64,000 nt of DNA. It comes from Antedon mediterranea. Its lineage: Eukaryota > Echinodermata > Crinoidea > Comatulida > Antedonidae. The stretch spans positions 20,424,001 through 20,488,000 of the forward strand of contig NC_092674.1 in the NCBI RefSeq assembly GCF_964355755.1. Reading direction: 5' to 3'. Below, piece after piece: positions 211 to 51,915 of this stretch. Within the stretch, counting starts at the first letter, position 1, and each line of letters starts with the position of its first letter. A program made the position numbers and the translations under genes. The notes under the pieces were generated by a model. The model did not search any database. It was not told where the DNA came from and saw only the letters and a program-made list of their open reading frames with translations.

Positions 211-3200
211 TGGTTCCCGTTCAGGCGTAATTCACCAGCACGATGTTCGAATTGCAGACCACCATATTGGCACTCTGAATTACCACACACAAGAGGTTTG
301 TGGACTCAAATGGAGTCCGGATGGAAAGTATCTGGCCAGTGGTGGTAATGACAACTTGGTGAATGTATGGAATGGTACGATGATGAATGCCCCGTCTCCG
401 ATACACAGTTTCACTCAACACCAAGCTGCCGTTAAGGTCAGTTTATTATGTTACGTACAATTGTATTGAAAGTTGTTTGATCTGTTATGAAATGGTAGAT
501 CTCAAATAATGATTTTTTAAAGATAGAAAGAATGTTTTTTTTTGTAGGCGTTAGCATGGTGTCCGTGGCAACCGTATCTACTAGCTAGTGGGGGTGGTAC
601 AGCTGATAGGCACATTCGATTCTGGAACTGCAACACAGGTTCTTGCTTGAATGGAGTCGACACAAACTCTCAGGTACCGTACCATACAACATTCGATAAA
701 ATTGTTAGATTTTGTTGAAAAAACAACTCAGCAGAAACGGAATGACTGCGTCAATTTTTTAGAAATTGAAACTTCACAGTTCGATTTGACAACAATGTAT
801 TTCTATAATATGCCACATGATCAATACAATAGTGAAGCCAAAGAAGATCGGGTTTAGAAATTACAATAGGCAACATCATATCATTTAATTGACACTATTA
901 CTTTATACAGGTGTCGTCTATTATATGGTCACATGAACACCGAGAAATTATATCAAGTCATGGATATTCACAATTTCAACTGTCAATGTGGAAATACCCC
1001 ACGATGACGAAAATTACGGAACTCAAAGGTAAAATTCAATTACAATTTTAATCACACTGTTCTCACGCTCCCCTAATGTAAATATTCACTATCTACTAGT
1101 ATCTAGGACCACTCTCAAAAGACTAGAGTGAAGTATCAGTGGTTAACGAATTCCACTTTCACACCGTACCTAATCTATTGCATCATTTCAGACAATGTTA
1201 ACCCTAAAAGAGAACGTTTTCATTTTATTCCACATTGATTTAGTCATCAATTACATCATAATTGCAATACAACTGATAACAATGATCCTGCATAAAAAAG
1301 CTGTAGCTTCGTTTTTTTATAGGATCCTTTTACATAGAACAATATAAGTAAATAGAACTAAATAGATAAAACAGTCATTTCCCATAAAGAAAGGTGTTTA
1401 TAATCGACATATAGTGATAAAAAGTATTGTTTTGACCTGTTTTTTATACATTTATTTGGTTTCTTTAAAATAACCGGTTTATTACCACCATTGTGGTCCA
1501 TATGTGTATAAACTGTTGACTGCAAGTTAGTCTTGTGAAGGGAATTTCGAATTCAGTTTCTGTTCTGAGGTTATGAGTAGGCCTAATACTGTTACAGTAA
1601 TTAAAAATATTTTAAATATGATGTGTTAATTCATTGAATTTTACGTTTGCAATCCTATGACGTTTACTTTGTAAATATCATAAACGTTTAAAGACCCCTT
1701 CCCTGCAATTTTGGACGTTTTTTGGAAAATAATACATATATATCACTTTAAAAACATCAAACCATGTCATTCCTTGTCTTAAATGTACGTTTTATGGTAA
1801 ATTATGATAAAAAGTGAGAAACAATGCACTACCTAAGTAGCTCGCGGCGATCGACCTCTCGTGGACGGTCTTAGGCCTAGCCTGGCTAGGCTTAGTTTTG
1901 TAGGCCTAGCTGGTAAACATCGGTAACGTGCGAACATCGTACGCTAGCTATATACCTAGCCTGACGTTGTATAGTTGCTGCATTAATTGTCTTTCTATTT
2001 TTGCCAGACTCCGTTGATACAAATTGGGGAAAACCCGGTATTTTCGCTGAAAAGTTAGGAGTCTTCCATTTGTTTTGGCCTCACGATCGATCGAAAAGTG
2101 GGCGAATTACAGGTGAAAAACAAAAATATCAATCCGCACGCAATGCATTTTGGGATTTATAGCGGGCCGCTATAATTATTAAAATCGACTTATTTTTCAC
2201 ATTTTTAACCGTTTAAAGACGAAAAAAGTTATCGCAATAGGACCATATAGTATTATTTTTACATTAAATATAGTTTGTGATCTTAAATTAGATCTAAAAA
2301 ACGTAGGGAATGGGGCTTTAATATTTTTCTTCACTCTTTAATCAGAGTGAAAACTTGTTTTCTAAAAGAGCACGTTTTCCCTCTTAAACATTTTCAATAA
2401 TCGTAATGTCCATTCATATACAATTCCATAACCTCCTAATTTCTGTTTTTGTTAAATTAAAAATAAACATATTTCAATGTGTGAAGATTTGGTTTCCTCA
2501 ACTTTGCTATTCTCATCTTTAACCGTCTCACATTATTATTTGTTTTTACCCCATTAAATATGTATAATAAAATAAAACAGGACATAATATAAACTAGTCA
2601 AGTGCATCCGAATAACTCGTTTTTTTTACAATGAAACAACATGTTTTAGCACAATAACTGAGGTATTGTTGCATTTGTGTTGTTGCAGCTTAAACATATA
2701 TTAAAATATAAATGTAGATGCCAACCACAGTAGATTATTTTCTTAGATGTTGAATCCTATTTAGGAAATCCTTCAAATCGTCTTGCACTTGTTATGCAAT
2801 TGCTATTTGAACTTTATGTTTCTGTTATTTTTGGGCAATCGTTAATAGCTTCTTGTGATTGATCACCTAAAGTAGGTATCTCTAATTAAAACAATAATAT
2901 CTTGTATTGAATGGTTGATTGTAGCTTCGGTTATTTCGAGTAGATGGTTTAGAGACTGTGTGTCTTCAAAAAGCAAATTATCCATTATCAAAATGTTTTC
3001 GGTCAACACCGATTTACCGAACTAGAAATCTTATGGGTTTTTTCCTTTGCAGCAAAACTCAAAACTGGTATACAACCAATACCACCCTCACAACCAATCC
3101 ACCCCCTCCCCCACGACCGATAATCGCAATGTTGGTTCGCACTAGTACAACAAGTACTTGTTAACCTCTCTATTTTGCCAATCGGCATCAAAGAGGCAAA

Positions 3201-5354
3201 CTTTCACCATGTATCAATTTTGATAGCTGAAATTCGGCAACGGCAATTCCCGGTATTTGTTATTACTTCTTAATCAGATGGAAGAACTCCAAAAGTGTGA
3301 AAGATCATCCTTCCTTGCCAAAATAGATATGTAACTGTAATAACTGTAATTCTAAAGCTGATTATCATAAATATTCTCTTAAATTAACAACTTAACTTAA
3401 CTTTGTTTTTCTTAAACTTGGTCCTGTCAATGTAAACAAGTTAATTTACATCTACATCTATTAAGATGTTAATCGCATATAACATCCAACAAGTAGGCCT
3501 AACACATGTAAAATAAAGTAAAATACAGAAAGCGACAGAGGGCGTGCTATTTCACATTTCGGCCCTAATTGAAAATACAGACAACTCGAGTAATTAATAT
3601 GCATTTGTGACGACATCAATATATCGATTTTCTTGAATAATAATATTCATGGATCTATTGATTTAAAAAAAAAACAACAACAAATCAAGGAAAGAACTTA
3701 AACATTCCCGTACAAGAAAAAAACAAGTAATAGCCTAGGCCCATATTATGTAAATTAAAAACAATTTTGAAAAAAAGCACTCGGACTTCAATTATAGCTT
3801 AGGCATACACGTTCCATCATGCCATATATTCGGTTTACATTTTGATTTGTATTTTTTTGATAAACAATGAAACATAATTCCATTTTGAAACTGAGATATT
3901 CAATTTTGAAATGAGATATTTGATAAAAACAAAAAACATTAAAAATTGAAAATAATTAGCTTACATGTTGCAACACCGATAGACTTACATACTTGGTACA
4001 CATTTAAACATACTACAAACCATATATGTTTGTACATAAGGCAAGGGACATAGAGTACAATATACTTAATTAATTTAGTTAACCAATCAACGAACATTGT
4101 AGATTACCAGGTACTTGACTGTTTTGTCAAACATCTTGGTGGCCCTGATACCTCGTTATTTGAAGGTTTACCTTTGTTAGTTATAATGCCTCCTATAGTT
4201 TATTGGTAATCTTGTTCATTTATATCACAATAGATGCTAAACATTTTTCAAATAAATCAGTGTTATTTACAATGAAGACAACACACTTCTTCGGTACTAA
4301 TAGAAAAATGTAATTGTATAATTATAACTCCTAGTATATGTAATAATAGTGTTAGAAAGTATTTTCGGCCCATGAAGATTCAATTTTGAAAGTTCTCATT
4401 TCAAACAAGGACTCTACTTCCGATTAAGTGGTTCTAATTATCGTCTGTATATTTGAGTAATAATTATACTATTGTGTTTTTATGAACTTAAATAAGTTAA
4501 CAATAAACAATAAATAATTAAAGTTAGATTATATTAGAAATGACATGACGGTTTAGTCTACTATACAGATGTTACATTATTGGCCTAGTTCGTTAAGATG
4601 AAGTGCGGATTATGGCAACATTAATTTAAGCAATTATAAGTAATTTCACTCTTCCTGGTCATACACATGCTGTGCTATCCCTTACCAAGGCTTGGGTCGA
4701 CAGAATTATGCTATTTCGGAAAACGTAGGCCTAATAGGTCTACTGATTACAATACTTTCCGATTCTGGACATCTTGTGTACGCATTATATCTTACTCTCT
4801 GCTATACTTAATTATTGTTACAAAACCAATAACATAATTATATCTGTAAATACCATAAACAGTTAGTCCTTTGTAATAAAATAAGACAAATTGTTTTGTC
4901 TTATTTTAGATGTTTCTTAATAGTAAATACATTTGTTAGAAAGTGTAATAATGTACAGTATTATAAGAGATACTTCCTTAATTGTGAATGTTGTATCGGA
5001 AAAGATTCATTCTTCCCCTGGTTGTGATTTAAATCTCACACCCACGGCTGAGGATCGACAGAAAAATAATACTAAATAAAAGAAACGAAAAAGCCAAAGT
5101 TAAGATGTAAACATGTAGATGTTGCCGCAAGTGTTACATGTTAAATTAAAAAAAAAAAATCTTTATATTTTTTATTAGGGCATACAAATAGGATATTATC
5201 GATGTGTATGTCACCTGACGGTACAAAGGTCATGTCAGCAGCAGCTGACGAAACACTTCGCTTGTGGCGGTGCTTCGATGGCTTGGAAAAAGTGAAGAAA
5301 ACAACTTCAAAGAAACATGACAGAAGCAGTATTATAGCAAAAGGAATCCGATAA
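211..5354 (+). CDS. cdc20: Cdc20 (APC/C activator), C-terminal four exons
   Basis: Exons read 211-436, 548-673, 911-1028 and 5179-5354 (TAA 5352-5354); all junctions are AG/GT and keep frame. About 214 residues are encoded, the C-terminal part of the WD40 propeller. Landmarks include [56 protein letters not shown] and [14 protein letters not shown], which align closely with animal Cdc20. The protein ends in Gly-Ile-Arg: the C-terminal Ile-Arg tail of the family docks on APC3. Cdc20 activates the anaphase-promoting complex and recruits D-box/KEN substrates at mitosis. The N-terminal part with the C-box lies left of the window, and bases 1-210 are intron. An AATAAA at 5491-5496 would give a short 3' UTR. 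Fzr/Cdh1 is the alternative family, but the WD40 wording fits Cdc20 better. Confidence 0.95.
1029..5178 (+). other. Last intron of cdc20 (4.15 kb)
   Basis: AT-rich sequence without a convincing exon or element boundary. TAGGCCTA-type palindromes occur near 1870-1910. The short frame at 2958-3164 has no recognisable protein. Confidence 0.6.
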
Positions 5355-9047: not shown

Positions 9048-12000
9048 CTAGAAAAAAATAATATTAAAAGAGTAAGAATTACTGTTATGGCTTCAAAATA
9101 TGATTTACACACGCACACACATATCATTTATGTGAAATACTTATATAACTTGCGTATTTGATCAAATATCTCTCTAGTAGAATAGGCATGTTCTAATATG
9201 GTTACTAGAATGTGCCTTTTCATTATAAAAATGTTGTATGTAAGATTGACTTCCAACAAATCGGTCTTTGAATGGTAATATTTATTCTCCACATTCAATA
9301 AATTCAAAATATTCATTATTTTATTGCACCTACTGTTGTAGAGTAAACTTATATTCAATTTATTAGCCGCTTCTATCTTTGAATTAAATATCAAAGGCTA
9401 AGCCATTCAAAAAGTTAGCACATGGATTTTGTTTGGGATGTAGGGAAGTTATAGACAGTACACAGGTGGCTTCCTCATCGCTCAATAAGCTCTATTGTAT
9501 TTCCTAACAAGTTTATATTGTGAAATATCTTCAATCGTATAAATGAGAAATAAATAATGCCGGAGACATGATATGAAATAAATCAATCAAAAGGACATAT
9601 GTTTGTTTGTTATATTATGAGCAAAGATACCTATATACTTTCTTATAAATGTACTTTTAAAACTTCCAGGCAAAATTCTGGTCATTTTGTTATCCTGTTA
9701 CCTTCATGTGTATGGATACATGTAGTTGTACACCCTCACGAACTTTCTTATGAGATTAACCCTTTGAAGACGCAAGGTTTCTACCCAAGTGACTGAGGCT
9801 AAATAAGGTATTTTCAATAGGTTTAGGAAAAATGCAAAATACATTTTTATGACAGTAACTTTCAACTGCAATTGTTGGTTTTATTGTTATGTGAAATGTT
9901 TTGTCCTTTGCATTTTTAAATAGTTCAAAGGTCAAATGCGCAAAAAGTGCAATTCAGTGAACCCAAAAAGTCAACCGGTACATATACGGGCCTCGCGTCC
10001 TGGGACAGTAAATTACCCCGTATGGGATAGGGCCAAGTCTTCAAAGGGTTTAAGAGAAAAACTAATAAAATGTAAAACTTACTTGACTTGACAAGTGACT
10101 GAGGCTAAATAAGGTATTTTCAATAGGTTTAGGAAAAATGCAAAATACATTTTTATGACAGTAACTTTCAACTGCAATTGTTGGTTTTATTGTTATGTGA
10201 AATGTTTTGTCCTTTGCATTTTTAAATAGTTCAAAGGTCAAATGCGCAAAAAGTGCAATTCAGTGAACCCAAAAAGTCAACCGGTACATATACGGGCCTC
10301 GCGTCCTGGGACAGTAAATTACCCCGTATGGGATAGGGCCAAGTCTTCAAAGGGTTTAAGAGAAAAACTAATAAAATGTAAAACTTACTTGACTTGACAA
10401 GTGACTGAGGCTAAATAAGGTATTTTCAATAGGTTTAGGAAAAATGCAAAATACATTTTTATGACAGTAACTTTCAACTGCAATTGTTGGTTTTATTGTT
10501 ATGTGAAATGTTTTGTCCTTTGCATTTTTAAATAGTTCAAAGGTCAAATGCGCAAAAAGTGCAATTCAGTGAACCCAAAAAGTCAACCGGTACATATACG
10601 GGCCTCGCGTCCTGGGACAGTAAATTACCCCGTATGGGATAGGGCCAAGTCTTCAAAGGGTTTAAGAGAAAAACTAATAAAATGTAAAACTTACTTGATT
10701 AATAGTGTTGCAGCCTTTAGTAATGGCACCTAAGTATGCCATAAGGCATACATCGTTACATTGCTGAAAACAAAAACAATTTTTTAAATTAAGATTAGAA
10801 TTAATGGGACTGAGTCAAAAAGAAATAAAACAGTAATTTTTACTATATATTGTATGTCAGGCTGGTAGCATTTTTTCAAGCAATGAGCCTTAAATTATAA
10901 AAATAAAGGTTGGGAATAAATATCCAATGTTATATATTGATCAAACATGCAAGTTTGACCAATCACTTGCATTCACACGAGTCATACAATAACAATGATT
11001 TGAAAATTGTTTGAAAAAGAAACGTAAAATGTATAACGTTATACAGTAGACCCTCTCATTTAGAACACCCGTATTATATCTAGCAAACACTTTCTAATAA
11101 ATCAATGAAGGAAAACATATTTTCCTAAAAGTAACAAACAAACTTTTACTTACATTGTAGAAGTCCCCATTGAATTTGTCAGAGCTAAGAACTGGTAGTC
11201 TGTGACATAAGCTGTGGGCATCTCGCATGATCTCATGGTTAATAGGTACGTGTCCATTTTGCACCGCTTTTACATAATCTAGAATCAACTTGACACGGCT
11301 GTGAAGCATCTTGATGGCGTTGTGCTGGGCTTGAAGGTGCTCAGCGACTGACAAGTAAAAAACAGATTGAAACAGAATTGCAATTGGTACACTAGAAAAA
11401 TATTAGTTTTCAAAACCATTTTATACTATATTTTGAAATAAGGGACCCAGGTCCTAAAAATGCTAAAATCAGCTGCTGAACTTAATCTGATGTCCTATCC
11501 TTTTATACATTTGTTAAATTTGGGGTGGGAGGGGGTTAGGGAGGAGAGAAACTGACCGGCTGCCTTCAACCCACAGATACAGGTTATGGATCAAAATGCA
11601 AATCATTTTATACAAATTCCATTCAATTCGAAATGCAGACAATCTTTATGCTACAACTCATACATACCAGAGGCATGGACATTTTTATTTTAGAGTTGGG
11701 TGTCAAAAATATATTGATAATTGAATAATGCAGTGAAAACCATCCAAATAAGTTTGTAAGCAACAAACAGACATTTTTGGACATACATTCAGGTTTTAGA
11801 AAGACCATTAGGGTGAATATAAAGCGCACCAATATTTCTATTAGGGATTTCAAAAGTCAAATTTTGACCACCTGTAATTTAGCATACACAACCTTTTTAG
11901 CGTATATTTATAACAATTTTATTTATTGAATACCATAACTTTACTAATTAAGAAACAATAAAGATTGATGTTAATACACTACTTTACAAACCTTTTGAAC

Positions 12001-34686: not shown

Positions 34687-35942
34687 TCATCCATCTACAG
34701 GTTCTCCTAAATATACCATGGCTACTTCTGTGTTGCCATACACAGCCGATATGGCTGGGTAGAGAGTTTCATTTGGAAGGCCGCGGAATGCAACTCCCAT
34801 AAATTCATACCCTCGTTCAAATGCTAAGTAATTGTCTTCCATATCCAGTATAACCCGTATTCGTTCTCCAACCTGAGGAAAATAATTTCCAGTTTTAATC
34901 TGTATTCATAGTGACTGTATAACATTTTATAATGACTGGTAATTAACAGGACATAGGATGATGTTAACTGGATAGGACAGTCACTTTGTTTGATTTCCTT
35001 TCTTGTGAGTGGAAAGGAAGGTTCAGGATTCGAGAGGTTTACAGTTAGGTTCTTTAAGGGAAGGTTCCCCATTAATATACATTCTTTCTATGTATGTTTA
35101 TGTACCGGTACTGTGTGTAACTTTATTATTTTCTGTGTTTTCTTGAGTTTTGAGGGTTAGCCTGGCTTTCCCCACAATTCATTATCTTTTTTGCGCTCCA
35201 TATACAATGTGTACAAAACAAATAAAAAGTAATAAAATTTTAATTTGATCACAAACCAAAATATATGCGAACAATCCTAAACCCTGTAATTTGAACTAGG
35301 CTACAAACAAGTTTTATTATTAAGAACAGCGATTAAAGAAATAATAAATGGGCTTCATACCTCATATTTCGGTGGATTATTGCACTGGGGGAAATTTCCT
35401 TGTTGGTCACCATTGTGTAAAAGAAAATTGTCCACAAGATTCCAGCCCCAGCTTTTGTCATTGCTACCAAGTAATCCTGTGTAGCCAGGACATTGCATCG
35501 GGGCATCTTTGGTTGCAATGCCGACAACAGCTACCGTTCCAAGTGGACCTTCCCACCAAATTTCCCAAGTGTGTCGACCCGTTTCAAAGCCACGTTTTCC
35601 CCTTGCACCATCTGTACTTTGTGCAACTGGACTTCTATGTAATACAAACCCATTCTTTTTTACAAATACATTTTGTGAGCAATCGTTCGGGTTCCAAGTG
35701 TAGTAGAGCGCTCGAAGTTTAGATTTGTACGTCGGGACGTTTGACAGAAAGTCTCCGTTCAAAACATCTTCTGCGAGTCTTTTTAGACATTGCACCCGCC
35801 AGATCATACTGTCTTCATCATTTAGATGATTGTGCCAGTGTTTACAAACAAGCGAAACATTTAAAAGATCTGGTAAATCCAGTAGAGAAAAGATTATTTC
35901 TAAGCAAGTTTTAGGAAGATCCGCCCATGAGGATACAGCCAT
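34687..35942 (-). CDS. fbxo45: F-box/SPRY protein Fbxo45
   Basis: Two exons: 35942-35361 and 34872-34687 (TGA 34687-34689), 255 residues, equal in length to the insect orthologue Fsn. The start is the ATG of MAVSSW (35940-35942); a TTG upstream is ignored. The N-terminal F-box reads [28 protein letters not shown]. The SPRY domain carries [71 protein letters not shown], then [23 protein letters not shown] and [17 protein letters not shown]. Fbxo45 binds Skp1 and the RING ligase PAM/MYCBP2 and is known from synapse development. A reverse AATAAA at 34574-34579 suggests a short 3' UTR. Confidence 0.97.
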
Positions 35943-36629
35943 CTTGAATTGACCCAAAAAAGGTCACTCAACAAAACTTCATACATTTTCAAAACAATAG
36001 AGGGCGATAAAATATTTGTATCAATGCCTCCCTCTCTGTCATTTCCTTTTTTCGAGGTACAGAGTACAGTATTATAGATTCATTGATAGTTGTTGATAGT
36101 CATTTCTCAAACAATACCACACAGATAAAAATATAAATATTTTGTTTTATTCAGCTGTATTTCAATTTACACACACATTTATATTGCATTCGATGAATGT
36201 TTGCAAATCATTGTTTTAGACCGGCAGCCCAGAGACATTTGGTTAGATGAGCTAGGTACCAATATCTGACTATTTGAGTGTGTTGGGGGTCACTTGAAGT
36301 GAATGAAAATGGGAGTCTGTCGGGTACCCCCTGCTGCGTCTAGACCGGGGGGACCCCGAAACGTGCTAAAAAATCGGCACAGGTTAGATGAGAGAGATAC
36401 CACCTAATTTTACCACCATGGGATGCCCATTGGCATCCTTATAACAGTATCACAAACGACAGACTTTTTCTCTGCTGCAAAAGGCCCGCCAGACCCCCCG
36501 GGGGAGGGCCTAAAATGGGGTTAGCATAGATGAGTGAGGTACCACTCAAAATCAATTCCAAACGAACAAGTTGTGTTCATACAACACTAAATGGATAACA
36601 ACAGACTAATTGTCTGCTGCACCGCAAGT

Positions 36630-37175
36630 GCCAGACACCCTAAAGTTAGACTAGAGGCCCCCCTTCCCCCAACTAACCCAGCTTAGATATTGTAGATACC
36701 ACCAGCAACCAATGTTATATGATTTAGCACATTGTAAGCAATACCAAATGACCTATTACAGACTATCTGAACACTGCCCTGGCCCTGGCAGACCCCTCTA
36801 AAGTTAGACTAGAGACCCTCTTTCCCCAACTAGCCCAGCTTAGATATTGTAGATACCACCAGCAACCAATGTTATATGATTTAGCACATTGTAAGCAATC
36901 ACCAAATGACCTATTACAAACTATCTGTACACTGCCTTGACCCTGGCAGACCCCTCTAAAGTTCGACTAGAGACTCCATTCCCCCAACTGGCCTAGCTTA
37001 GATATTGTTGATACCACCAGCAACCAATGTTATAATTATGATTTAGCACATTGTAAGCAATACAAAATGACCTATAACAGACTATCTGTACACTGCCTTG
37101 GCACTGGCAGACCCCTCTAAAGTTCCCCCATTTACCCCAAGTATATAGCCTACCTTAGATATTGTAGATACCACC
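36630..37175. repeat. ~150-bp tandem units, left arm
   Basis: About four units with GATATTGTAGATACCACCAG, CAATGTTATATGATTTAGCA and CCTGGCAGACCCCTCTAAAG. Mirrored at about 40735-41285 in the right arm. Confidence 0.85.
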
Positions 37176-37569
37176 AGCAGCAAAAAAATAACCACCCAAA
37201 ACAACATGTTTAATTGAATAAAGTTTAACTTTAATCGAACTAACACAAAACAATTGAAAATATATCACATCAATGACGATAAAATGACCATTACCATTCT
37301 AAAGGGGAAAATAGTTTAAGAGTTTCAATTAAAACTTATATATTATAAGCCAAATATATATAACAAGTATGGATTCGGGTAAATTTAGAATTCCTTTCCT
37401 TTGGATGTCAAAGATACATCCGTCTGTAACTCTTGGACATATTTTGAGAGAAAGCTTAGTAATCACCCTAATCAAATTCAGGATTGTAGTAACTTAATCT
37501 TAAGTGATTTGATTAATTAATAGTGGGTAATTTTAAATGCTGTATATTATAATCTTAATCCTGTATTCA

Positions 37570-37767
37570 TATGTATATATATATATTTATAAATCCAAAG
37601 GCAAATTACTGAAAAAATGACAATGCTGTGGGTATCAGTGGCTGGATCTCAATGGAGATACAAAAAAAAGCGAAAAGCTAAATCAAAACGATAAAGTAAA
37701 ACGCCAGAAAAGTTAGCAGAGCTTTCGCGCAACACTAGCCCTTCATCAGTGCAAGTCTTATATAGAT
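37570..37767 (-). mobile_element. Penelope-like 3' end in left arm, inverted
   Basis: On the minus strand it reads GACTTGCACTGATGAAGGGC, then TAGTGTTGCGCGAAAGCTCTGC, the TTTGATTTAGCTTTTCGC block and CCACTGATACCCACAGCA. This is the inverted partner of 40107-40275. Penelope elements may carry their terminal repeats in direct or inverted orientation. Confidence 0.75.
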
Positions 37768-38019
37768 GCGTTGAGGCTGCAAACGTGCTCAATTGGAATC
37801 AAGAGCGAATATATATTTTTATAAAGTAGATGGAACACGGACGTCTATTACACGGTGTTTCACGTTAAACGATCTTCAGATAGACTGAACAATACCGTAT
37901 CTCGATCGAAAAAAATATAAAAAAAAAAATTATAAATATATATAATTTTTTTTTATGTACTTTATTTATGTAGATATGTAGTACTGTATCTATTAAAAAA
38001 GGTATTTGAACAAAATTAG

Positions 38020-39778
38020 AGATCTCAATGAGATCCAAATTGACAATTGCCGCAAAATCCTCACTGAGTTTGACGTTGAAATTCACTCTAGAACTAAGAA
38101 GTTGAAAAGAGAACTTCCTGCATCGATCCTAGTTTCAAAACAAATTCAGGATTATCGCCAATGACTGCCGTAAACAATCAACGGTAATGGCCCGAAGGGA
38201 ACATCACAAATTTGGTCTACCATGCAGACTTGGTCATTTCAACACAAATGACTCTACCTTCGGATGACTTCAGGGCTTTTAGGAAACCCTGCAGAAGGTT
38301 CGTTGGGACATATAACAAGAATCAGAGCAACACCTCTGATTCAGTTGTTGAAATTAATTGTCGACTTTCCGAAGGAGAGAAAAAACTTCCTTCCCGAGGA
38401 CTTAAATTCTGCCCAAAACCAAGGCAGGTCGGCGGACAACAACTATCTTTGGATATAGAGTCTTTTTCTAGAAGATTACGATTACGTGAATATTTTGCTG
38501 ATTCAGACAGCAGCACCACGCAAAACGAAGGCAACGTTAACAAGTTTAAACCAAAAAGTTCCTGGAATCCACCTAAAAATCGTTGTCCAGCTTTAGAAAC
38601 ATTTATCCAGGCTATTGAGGAGGATGTACAAAACTACGCCCCGAGTCCAGATAAACGTGACAATCTCAAAACAAGAGAGGCAGGCCATTGCCAAATTGCG
38701 TCAGCGTAATGATATCATCATTAAACCCGCTGATAAAGGTTCTGCCACTGTTGCTATGGACATCAAATTTTATTAAGAGGAATCCTTAAGACAGCTTCAT
38801 TATATATCGTAAACTCACAACGGAACCCACCCCGGAAATTGCGGATAAGGTGGCAAAATCTGTTTCTGTGATGGTAAAAAAAAACACTCCATCGATCCTA
38901 AGATTTACAGTTACCAAATCCACTAGTAGCGTTGATTTTGTGGACACTATAGTGACCATAGAAAATGGTACTCTCAAAACTGACCTATTCCGTAAATCCA
39001 CTGATAAAAATATGTACCTGCTCCCTAGCAGTTGTCATCCCCAACATTGTACTAAAAACATACCGAACAGTAAAGCATTACCTATCAGACGTATCTGTTC
39101 TTCAGATTTAGATTTTCAGAATCGTACCGAAGAACTAACCGGACATCTCCGGAGTAGAAATTACAAACCTATCAACCTAGGTTGCCTCCATTACGGGGCT
39201 ATTAATTTATTGAGAAACATATGCCCATTCTACAGTCCACAGAACGTCTCAGGACTGTTTTTCCGGAACCACCCATTATTGCATTTCGTAGACCTCCCAA
39301 CCTTCGTGATATATTAGTCAGATCCAAATGTAAGAGTGAAATTAACTCTCATGACAGTCAAAATTTGGGCAGTCACCTTTGCGGCAAATCTTGCAAAACT
39401 TGTTCATTGGTTGATTCTACTGAAAAATTTAGGAGTAACCAAACTGGCCGCATTTTTCGGATAAGACAATCAATTAATTGTCTAACCAAAAACGTCATTT
39501 ATCTCAATATTTGTGGCAAACAGTACGTCGGAGAAACAAAAAACACTCTCCGTATGAGAATGACACAACACAGATCAGCTATCAACACATTAAAGCTTGT
39601 TCAACCTGTAGCCGAACATTTTAATTCATCTGGTCACAAATTTCAGAGTTATTGCAATATTCCATGTGTCAAATGGAGCGACAAAACTTGCAAAGACAAG
39701 GAAAACCACTGGGAATTACAACTTAAACCCACAAAACCTTTTGTACTTAACATTAGAAACATACTCCCAGGTTGGTAA
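38020..39778 (+). pseudogene. Internally deleted Penelope-like element (RT/GIY-YIG)
   Basis: Three frames with breaks between them. 38212-38709 shows the Penelope N-terminal region (LPSRGLKFCPKP, FSRRLRLREYF, KSSWNPPKNRCPALETFI); NDIIIKPADKGSATVAMD follows after a shift. From 38850 the frame jumps to a block resembling the RT thumb side (FVDTIVTIENGTLKTDLFRK, STDKNMYLLPSSCHP), so the RT palm with its catalytic aspartates is absent. 39221-39778 encodes the C-terminal endonuclease: LCGKSCKTC, then VIYLNICGKQYVGETKNTLR (GIY-YIG-like), MTQHRSAI and VAEHFNSSGHKF, ending at TAA 39776-39778. Immobile without help. Confidence 0.85.
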
Positions 39779-39837
39779 AATTATTCCATTGTCTACCTAA
39801 ATTTAAGTTTCACTATTAACCACCATTTAAGCTGTTT

Positions 39838-39955
39838 TTAGTCGCGTGGACGCGACTCTATAGTTCACTATGTCGGCGGTCGGTCGGTCTGTCGGTCTGT
39901 CTGTCGGTCCGGTATCACTATGCGTTTTAGCACGCGACTTATGGCTGTTGGCCAT
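39838..39955 (+). repeat. Dispersed hairpin/CGAC-repeat element (copy 2)
   Basis: Begins with hairpin AGTCGCGTGGACGCGACT, then TATAGTTCACTATGTCGG, a (CGGT/CTGT) tract, CCGGTATCACTATGCG and GCACGCGACTTATGGCTGTT. Opposite orientation to the copy at 15549. It lies 60 bp after the GIY-YIG stop. Confidence 0.65.
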
Positions 39956-40106
39956 GTTTAGTTTCATTCCAAAATTGTTTATACTGTATCTCTACCAAGC
40001 TACCTTCTTTGTTTTCTACTCTTATTCAGACTCCACCCTGTCTCCTTTTGTTGTATTTCTTTTATTCCTGTCCACCCAGGCAGCACTTGCCAGCTCTTAT
40101 CCTTCA

Positions 40107-40275
40107 CTTGCAATGATGAAGGGCTAGTGTTGCCCGAAAGCTCTGCTAACGTTTCTGGCTGTTTTACTTTATCCTTTTGATTTAGCTTTTCACTTTTTTT
40201 TTTGTATCTCCATTGAGATTCAGCCACTGATACCCACAGCATTGTCATTTTTTCAGTTATTTGCCTTTGGATTTA
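40107..40275 (+). mobile_element. Penelope-like 3' end in right arm
   Basis: ACTTGCAATGATGAAGGGCT, AGTGTTGCCCGAAAGCTCTGC, TTTTGATTTAGCTTTTCACT and CCACTGATACCCACAGCATT follow the endonuclease frame on the same strand. The core reads AATGATGA where copies 1 and 37570 have CTGATGA. Confidence 0.75.
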
Positions 40276-40734
40276 TATATATAAATATATATAGAGGATT
40301 AAGATTATAATATACAGCATTTAAAATTACCAACTATTAATTAATCAAATCACTTTGGATTAAGTTACTACAATCCTGAATTTGATTAAGGTGATTACTA
40401 AGCTTTCTCTTAAAATAGGTGCAAGAGTTACAGACGAATGTATCTTTGACATTCAAAGGCAAGGAATTCCAGATCCTCACAATTCTTCGCAGGAATGCTA
40501 AATTTACTCGAATCCGTACTTGTTTATATTTGGCTTATATAAGTTTGAAGTGAAACTCTTAAACTATTTTTCCCTTTAAAATGGTAATGGTCATTTTATC
40601 GTCATTGATGTGATATATTTTCAATTGTTTTGTGTTAGTTCGGTTAAAGTTAAACTTTATTCAATTAAATATGTTGTTTTGGGTGGTTTTTTTTTTGCTG
40701 CTGGTGGTATCTACAATATCTAAGGTAAGCTATA

Positions 40735-41285
40735 TACTTGGGGTAAATGGGGAAACTTTAGAGGGGTCTGCCAGTGCCAAGGCAGTGTACAGATAGTCTG
40801 TTATAGGTCATTTGGTATTGCTTACAATGTGCTAAATCATAATTATAACATTGGTTGCTGGTGGTATCTACAAGATCTAAGCTAGGCCAGTTGGGGGAAT
40901 GGAGTCTCTAGTCGAACTTTAGAGGGGTCTGCCAGGGCCAAGGCAGTGTACAGATAGTTTGTAATAGGTCATTTGGTGATTGCTTACAATGTGCTAAATC
41001 ATATAACATTGGTTGCTGGTGGTATCTACAATATCTAAGCTGGGCTAGTTGGGGAAAGAGGGGTCTCTAGTCTAACTTTAGAGGGGTCTGCCAGGGCCAG
41101 GGCAGTGTTCAGATAGTCTGTAATTATAGGTCATTTGGTATTGCCTACATGTGCTAAATCATATAACATTGGTTGCTGGTGGTATCTACAATATCTAAGC
41201 TGGGTTAGTTGGGGGAAGGGGGGCCTGTAGTCTAACTTTAGGGTGTCTGGCACTTGCGGTGCAGCAGACAATTAGTCTGTTGTTA
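40735..41285. repeat. ~150-bp tandem units, right arm
   Basis: Inverted counterpart of 36630-37175, with GGGGTCTGCCAGGGCCA and GGTTGCTGGTGGTATCTACA repeated four times. Confidence 0.85.
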
Positions 41286-41819
41286 TCCATTTAGTATTGT
41301 ATGAACACAACTTGTTCGTTTGGAATTGATTTTGAGTGGTACCTCACTCATCTATGCTAACCCCATTTTAGGCCCTCCCTCGGGGGGTCTGGCGGGCCTT
41401 TTGCAGCAGAGAAAAAGTCTGTCGTTTGTGATACTGTTATAAGGATGCCAATGGGCATCCCATGGTGGTAAAATTAGGTGGTATCTCTCTCATCTAACCT
41501 GTGCCGATTTTTTAGCACGTTTCGGAGTCCCCCCGGTCTAGACGCAGCAGGGGGTACCCGACAGACTCCCATTTTCATTCACTTCAAGTGACCCCCAACA
41601 CACTCAAATAGTCAGATATTGGTACCTAGCTCATCTAACCAAATGTCTCTGGGCTGCCGGTCTATTTGTGATATAAGTATAATAAACATTCGAGTAGAGT
41701 ATAATAGGTCTGTTGATAAAGTATACCTGGTCTTACATTTACGACAAAGTCTAGGCTTAATACCATATTGTAAGTGTTTTTTACTTTCTGTAAAATAAAA
41801 TTTGTTTAAATATCATTAA

Positions 41820-42159: not shown

Positions 42160-42430
42160 AAGCCTGGTTTCCATAAAATCGCTACACGACAGAGCGTAGC
42201 GATTCTATGGAAACGCTAGAATGTGTATCGGGGATCTAGTACGCGAGTGCTAAATATTCTTTGGTACGCTTATACGATTCATCGCCGACAAAATCGGCAA
42301 AGTTGAACATGGTTGAACTTTGCCGATTTGACTGCGATGAATCGGGAGCCTTCCCGATTGCGTCGGCGACATCTGCGCGTGTAGCGATTTTAATGGAAAC
42401 GCTGTAGCGATTTTAATAGAAACCAGGCTT
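42160..42430. mobile_element. Foldback MITE (copy A)
   Basis: Ends AAGCCTGGTTTCCAT and complement ATAGAAACCAGGCTT. Nearly the whole 271 bp is self-complementary: TGTAGCGATTTTA blocks at both sides and TTGCCGATTTTGTCGGCGA-type arms in the centre. Non-coding. Confidence 0.8.
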
Positions 42431-42545
42431 AACTAGTAACGATGGTTCTCGGAATGACTCGAGTAAAAAGATTTTAAAAGAATGTTTTGTCTTGTTGGAC
42501 GTTTTCGGTCGGTGAATTATTGAAATGCTTGAAATAAAGAAAATT

Positions 42546-42793
42546 AAGCCTGGTTTCCATTAAAATCGCTACAGCGTTTCCATTAAAATCGCTACACGCG
42601 CAGTTGTCGCCGACGCAATCGGGAAGGCTCCCCGCGATTCATTGCAGTCAAATCGGCAACTTTGCCGATTGTGTCGGCGATGAATCGTATACGCGTTCCA
42701 AAGAATATTTAGCGCTCGCGTAATTGATCCCCAATAAATTCTAGCGTTTCCATAGAATCGCTACGCTCTGTCGTGTAGCGATTTTATGGAAAG
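42546..42793. mobile_element. Foldback MITE (copy B, inverted)
   Basis: Same sequence as copy A in the opposite orientation, 115 bp away; the right end is cut short after TTTTATGGAAA. Confidence 0.8.
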
Positions 42794-51289: not shown

Positions 51290-51915
51290 CGTCAGTAAAC
51301 TTCGCCTGGAAAATAACTACAGTACACATTTTTGGTCCCTGGATGGAACATGATATCACGCGTCTCGACCCAACGTTGAACGATTCGTACAAAGGGATAC
51401 CGCCAGACAAGTGCGAACCTAGCTATTGTTTAGTAGTAAGTTAGATCGCTGGCAATAATGGATGCATAGAAAATGCATAATATCACTCTGACGTACTCTC
51501 ACAGTCAATGAAACGTCGCGGTTTTCTAGGCGCTGAAGCTAGCTACGAAGTAAACGCGAACGCTTTTTACTGTATATTATATTCCCCGACAAAAAGTACC
51601 CGTGTTCCCTTCGGTAACCTTCGCCTGGAAAATAACTACATTACACACTTTGGTCCCTGGATGGAACTTGATATCACGCGTCTCGACCCAACGTTGAACG
51701 ATTCGTACAAAGGGATACCGCCAGACAAGTGCGAACTAACTATTGTTTAGTAGTAAGTTAGATCGCTGGCAATAATGAATGCATAATATCACTCTGACGT
51801 ACTCTCACGGTCAATCAAACGTCGCGGTTTTCTAGGCGCTGAAGCTAGCTACGAAGTGAACGCGAACGCTTTTTACTGTATATTATATTCCCCGACAAAA
51901 AGTACCCGTGTTCCC
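51290..51915. repeat. ~310-bp tandem duplication inside the hAT-like element
   Basis: Two units share TTCGCCTGGAAAATAACTAC, CTCGACCCAACGTTGAACGA, GGGATACCGCCAGACAAGTG and CGTCGCGGTTTTCTAGGCGC. The frame at 51508-51750 spans the junction and matches no protein I know. Confidence 0.8.

Follow-up and report, generated by a model that had tools for sequence, protein, structure and literature searches.

Very long, internally repetitive inverted ends are known from foldback DNA transposons of Drosophila. Galileo, a member of the P superfamily, has inverted ends of up to ~1.25 kb built with ~210-bp repeats that contain secondary transposase-binding sites (PMC3573991). The Tetris foldback of Drosophila virilis has three-part inverted ends, composed of a flanking domain, tandem repeats (~220 bp) and an inner domain, around a middle of variable composition (PMC4079207). 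Target duplications of AcademX transposons measure 3 or 4 bp, a length that has been related to the nuclease encoded by these elements (PMC10045372). Among retroelements, the Penelope-type endonucleases prefer AT-rich DNA (PMC11167929).

We analysed a stretch of 64,000 nucleotides (the window) on contig C5 of Antedon mediterranea, a eukaryotic genome of 354 Mb in 18 contigs. The original prediction placed a large foldback here, and the foldback was confirmed: inverted arms lie at 36217-37756 and 40106-41664, far beyond chance. The element, E, spans 36217-41664 (5448 bp), reads TAGACCGGCAGCCC...GGGCTGCCGGTCTA and is laid out in Table 1; adding 36216 to a position in E gives the window position. 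Gap-free blocks between the arms measured 527, 516 and 204 nt at 98, 99 and 92% identity, with outer arms matching at 98–99% and the deeper arm at ~92%. Arms of 1.55 kb are present as predicted, although the last ~0.2 kb of each is a separately arrived Penelope pLTR. The predicted "unique block" of each arm is indeed mirrored, but it contains a LINE 3' tail. The broken Penelope-like element expected in the loop was recovered, with a GIY-YIG frame and without the RT core present in fuller copies elsewhere. We conclude that E is very probably a non-autonomous foldback DNA transposon with dead Penelope passengers, and that a partner most likely of AcademX type would move this transposon with a 3-bp duplication.

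Table 1. Features of element E and its flanks in window coordinates.
Feature	Position	Strand	Remark
Left target-site duplication TTT	36214..36216	.	3-bp flank identity
Left outer arm: tip TAGACCGGCAGCCC and seven units of 141-158 bp	36217..37186	+	inverted end common to autonomous relic
Motif TTAGATnnnnnAGRTACCA, left arm (36243..37173)	starts 36243, 36384, 36526, 36683, 36840, 36998, 37155	+	
Left inner arm, with an AT-rich block and the 3' tail of a LINE	37187..37566	+	
Left (TA)n tract, split by pLTR	37567..37590	.	unsplit in L062 and L063
Left Penelope pLTR, separate later insertion, inverted	37591..37756	-	hammerhead-like core 37714-37749
Loop spacer	37761..38024	+	37978-38019 resembles the autonomous relic's 3' tail
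5'-truncated Penelope body	38024..40099	+	RT core deleted ~38904; ~110 bp more missing ~39166
GIY-YIG endonuclease remnant reading frame of Penelope	39206..39778	+	
Right (3') Penelope pLTR	40100..40293	+	hammerhead-like core 40113-40148, first core base changed (ATGATGA)
Right inner arm: inverted copy of AT-rich/LINE-tail block	40299..40694	-	LINE reading-frame end 40340-40534 (-)
Right outer arm, mirror of left	40695..41664	-	gap-free arm matches
Mirrored motifs, right arm, first four	41620-41638, 41479-41497, 41337-41355, 41180-41198	-	
Mirrored motifs, right arm, last three	41020-41038, 40862-40880, 40705-40723	-	
Right target-site duplication TTT	41665..41667	.	3-bp flank identity

The foldback lies ~280 bp upstream of the start codon of an FBXO45-like first exon, an F-box and SPRY frame at 35361-35939 on the minus strand (F-box-like, E=1.8e-10; SPRY proteins in PDB, E~1e-31), and it may therefore occupy the promoter or 5' region of that gene. 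Elsewhere in the window, a 306-bp unit is repeated three times at 100% identity (9786-10698), which could reflect either a very recent duplication or the assembly. At 42380-42596, two pairs of 23-bp direct repeats, one of TGTAGCGATTTTAATAGAAACGC and the other nearly its reverse complement, lie opposite one another at a distance of ~130 bp and resemble the ends of a small inverted-repeat element.

Each arm carries a 158-160-bp minisatellite. The pattern TTAGATnnnnnAGRTACCA (≤2 mismatches) was found seven times in each arm, at mirrored positions with a spacing of 141-160 bp, and was absent from the rest of the 64-kb window. Diverged units thus make up the outer arm over its full length, including the tip, and by analogy with Galileo they are candidate transposase-binding sites. 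The outer arms of the window copy are 99.3% identical over their outer 415 bp. Across 13 copies, outer arms within one copy were 99.5% identical, the same as between copies, and inner arms within one copy were 94.4% identical (left-left and right-right comparisons, 98.7-98.9%). Side-specific differences in 12 copies were absent from the first 550 bp, numbered three up to 950 bp and became frequent beyond ~1.1 kb. These patterns indicate that the inner arms diverged before the family spread, and that the outer ~1 kb stayed or became alike. Arm-to-arm or copy-to-copy exchange would most simply keep the outer arms alike, and recent common descent together with constraint could contribute in part. 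The inner block includes the LINE 3' tail, relatives of which occur in long open frames elsewhere in the genome. LINE tail and (TA)n stand on both sides in the same order, so copying of this stretch between the arms is likely.

Many other copies with these ends were found. The outer 583 bp of the arm gave 40 full-length matches at 97-100% identity among the candidates scored, and a 31-base tip probe (≤3 mismatches) gave 150 matches, 70 forward and 80 reverse, compared with 0 for the reversed control. Among 100 matches listed there were at least 36 facing tip pairs, spaced 331 bp to 16.7 kb apart and mostly 5.2-5.7 kb; all copy counts are lower bounds. Dozens of copies with differing flanks are distributed over all eleven large contigs, and members of 331, 784 and 1662 bp have the same ends and no Penelope sequence. 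The family is a young, many-copy cut-and-paste DNA element with very long inverted ends. The 16.7-kb pair (L039 and L040, C7:10434130-10450800) was considered as a full autonomous element and rejected: two elements are fused with loss of their inner tips, an autonomous relic adjoining a second, E-type element. At 2516-3106, L040 also contains part of another Penelope-type endonuclease, distinct from the first.

For 24 of 28 copies, the left and right 3-bp flanks outside TAGACC...GGTCTA were the same, while flanks of different copies agreed in 6.9%, the chance level for 3-bp identity. No 4-bp flank match occurred among the 28. The duplications are mostly A/T-rich (TAG, TAA, GTA, CTA, TAT, TTA, ATA, TTT and others; TTT in the window). 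One of the four copies without matching flanks is the 16.7-kb copy, whose mismatch is due to its being two adjoining elements. The element at C2:10761485, also without matching 3-bp flanks, sits in a copy of the 306-bp tandem repeat that occurs at 51295-51915 of the window; this repeat is ~87-96% like the DNA on both sides of that element. Empty sites were found in three cases, one of them partial (C5:3295622). The 5.4-kb Penelope-bearing element at C4:18331549 matched the empty site L068 (C4:16321690) in 150/150 and 150/150 bases, with one GTA, and it has a second empty counterpart, L069, at C4:19066980. The 1662-bp copy L048 lies inside a Penelope copy; the uninterrupted relatives of that Penelope, L066 and L067, have a single TAA at this point. 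All are paralogous repeat sites, and thus document exact insertion boundaries but not the ancestral sequence of the occupied locus itself. Together, the flanks and empty sites indicate that the TA once thought to be a duplicated target is part of the inverted end, and that the target duplication is 3 bp. Duplications of this length and varied sequence differ from the TA target-site duplication of Tc1/mariner elements, and a duplicated TA was rejected.

Retroelement insertions in DNA transposons are common. The passenger here has free-standing relatives, L066 and L067, with RT, GIY-YIG and pLTRs. In L067, which has tandem pLTRs, Pfam placed RVT_1 below its cut-off (E=1.8e-4) and GIY-YIG above (E=3.2e-5); the Penelope-like combination of an RT and a C-terminal GIY-YIG is thus found in free-standing L067, and in the window copy the RT core is deleted. 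The free-standing Penelope locus L066 contains one 1.5-kb part of itself twice, in inverted orientation and at 96% identity (1-1486 and 1986-3462). Compared with L066 and L067, the close copies of E share common breakpoints: one at E 2687/2689, where ~0.58 kb of RT core is missing, and one at E 2950, where ~110 bp are gone. Since all have the same RT deletion, the close copies spread as DNA. At least part of the RT core is kept, with stops, in L060, L062, L064 and a 12.6-kb copy, and L063 has lost the core and retained the 110 bp, so that the copies form a structural series from RT-bearing to RT-less composites. The left pLTR is absent from all five; L062 and L063 have an unbroken (TA)n between the LINE tail and the spacer. 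In E, by comparison, an inverted 190-bp pLTR lies within the left (TA)n tract. At the same site the 16.7-kb copy has a different Penelope fragment and a direct pLTR, and L064 has tRNA-like sequence (~1000-1270). L044 carries six tRNA-like units in an array there (1503-4250); ARAGORN assigned the units of L044 and L064 to Asp, anticodon atc. In a pLTR tree, left pLTRs grouped with those of free-standing Penelope (99% to L067) and right pLTRs formed another group (94%), with support of 99/98. The hammerhead-like core CTGATGA...GAAA...GCTA, a pattern match, is intact in free-standing pLTRs; in E the left pLTR has a helix II mismatch and the right pLTR a changed first core base. Rfam gave no hammerhead match for the pLTR core.

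Several other origins for E were weighed against these data. A one-off inverted duplication or misassembly, the outcome that would have undone the original prediction, has essentially no chance of being correct: the copy search left it without support, given dozens of copies with different flanks on eleven large contigs and the existence of empty sites. The original prediction also offered a Penelope retroelement with its own inverted terminal repeats that took up flanking DNA; such a unit would spread by reverse transcription. The Penelope body with pLTRs at the centre of E, and the inverted copies in L066, fit such an origin, yet we regard it as very improbable and rejected it because the family has exact DNA-transposon ends, 3-bp duplications and precise empty sites, because members without Penelope share those ends, and because close copies have common internal deletions that remove the RT core. 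Somewhat less remote, but still improbable, is an origin of the mirrored Penelope ends in an inverted duplication, or in copying from one arm to the other, that would have extended the arms inward to 1.55 kb. The LINE tail and (TA)n, in the same order on both sides, agree with copying; for the pLTRs themselves, however, the left and right copies of one element are not sisters in the tree, and the left site is unsplit in L062 and L063. The tree and the uninterrupted (TA)n together argue for two independent insertions, and the Penelope end can no longer be counted as a duplicated part of the arm. Of the alternatives in the original prediction, the supported one is capture of a Penelope by a DNA transposon whose inverted ends are very long; it agrees with the many copies, exact ends, duplications and empty sites.

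The identity of the partner leaves more room for a competing assignment. An 8-kb copy, L043, has ends like E over 650-770 bp at ~90-91%, four to five TTAGATnnnnnAGRTACCA motifs per end and a coding region of ~4 kb disrupted by frameshifts; a second relic of this type is present in the 16.7-kb copy, and both autonomous copies found are broken. In the loop, E 1762-1803 retains 42 bp (93%) of the L043 3' tail, which makes descent of E from an L043-type element probable. The partner protein has many paralogues in the genome, some with open frames >1500 aa (1550 aa in L065). Pfam and single-sequence PDB searches with it yielded nothing useful: Pfam returned no XPG match, no P/THAP transposase and no DDE transposase domain, only DUF6589 below its cut-off (E=4e-4). 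P-superfamily target duplications are longer than 3 bp. A profile of eight paralogues matched Exonuclease 1 best in PDB (XPG/RAD2-family nuclease; E=0.017, statistically weak), with two collinear aligned stretches, one at DxYxxSxKxxERxxR and one at GCD. The acidic residues follow the pattern ID..., DxYxxSxKxxERxxR, EEADT, SxDTDV, GCD, and we take EEADT, DTD and GCD to be what is expected of XPG/FEN metal sites. Since two relics sharing the ends of E code for this protein, with its putative XPG/EXO1-like nuclease region, an AcademX-like DNA transposon is the likely partner. A partner from a different superfamily that also makes 3-bp duplications, for instance Harbinger or EnSpm, is unlikely, but its chance is appreciable, because the placement depends on the profile match and motif order and because Pfam identified no DDE core. 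Against it stand the XPG/FEN-like acidic pattern and the 3-4-bp duplications that AcademX makes with a nuclease (PMC10045372). On profile match, motif pattern and the 3-bp duplications with their empty sites, AcademX is most likely the best placement, and the window copy a likely non-autonomous relative, an assignment that rests on the partner.

On the preferred reading of E as a non-autonomous foldback transposon, a transposase from related elements, most likely of AcademX type with an XPG-like nuclease, would recognise the TAGACCGGCAGCCC ends and move the element in trans with a 3-bp duplication, probably assisted by the seven-unit array of each arm. The ancestral element would have had arms of ~1.35 kb of inverted sequence in the order tip, units, LINE tail, (TA)n, then a short loop and the mirror image. 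A first Penelope presumably inserted next to the right (TA)n, and the left (TA)n afterwards received a second Penelope end, oriented the other way. Landing in (TA)n fits the endonuclease preference noted above (PMC11167929). The composite, once its Penelope RT core was deleted, would then have been amplified as a single piece of DNA. More tentatively, it is possible that the (TA)n tracts serve as a recurrent, independent landing pad for Penelope and tRNA-like DNA, that the transposon acts as a shuttle multiplying dead retroelement pieces, and that the unit ends are kept identical as a transposase-binding array.

The architecture is already known from Galileo and Tetris (PMC3573991, PMC4079207), and E falls within the foldback class by its long inverted ends with internal tandem repeats. 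Galileo and the E family are also alike in taking inner sequence into their ends, in having many non-autonomous copies and, probably, in exchange between copies (PMC3573991). Unlike Galileo, the E family has 3-bp duplications, a putatively XPG-bearing partner and Penelope cargo, and no P-type transposase was found. Tetris is alike in its three-part ends and variable middle (PMC4079207), a likeness of architecture; E differs in its ~158-bp units, its Penelope middle and its probable partner. The E family resembles AcademX in 3-bp duplications and in a partner protein with a putative XPG-like nuclease region (PMC10045372), whereas the window copy encodes no transposase and its ends are ~1 kb of repeat units. 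Free-standing relatives here are like Penelope/Poseidon in RT, GIY-YIG, pLTR, a putative hammerhead-like core and AT-rich insertion (PMC11167929); the window Penelope, in contrast, is a 5'-truncated passenger with its RT core deleted, and is not the mobile unit. No composite of Galileo-like foldback, AcademX-like partner and Penelope landings was found in the literature searched, and as far as searched the combination of this architecture with an AcademX-like partner, and the succession of Penelope insertions into a single mirrored (TA)n site, are new.

A Galileo-like foldback architecture, described from Drosophila, is thereby found in a family with a probable AcademX partner. The family preserves a graded series, from members with no Penelope, through those whose Penelope has an RT core, to RT-less members with a second pLTR. 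With this series, two ways in which mirror-image arms can arise may be told apart: exchange from arm to arm, and separate insertions at mirrored landing sites. The unit array supplies precise candidate transposase-binding sites for a poorly studied superfamily.
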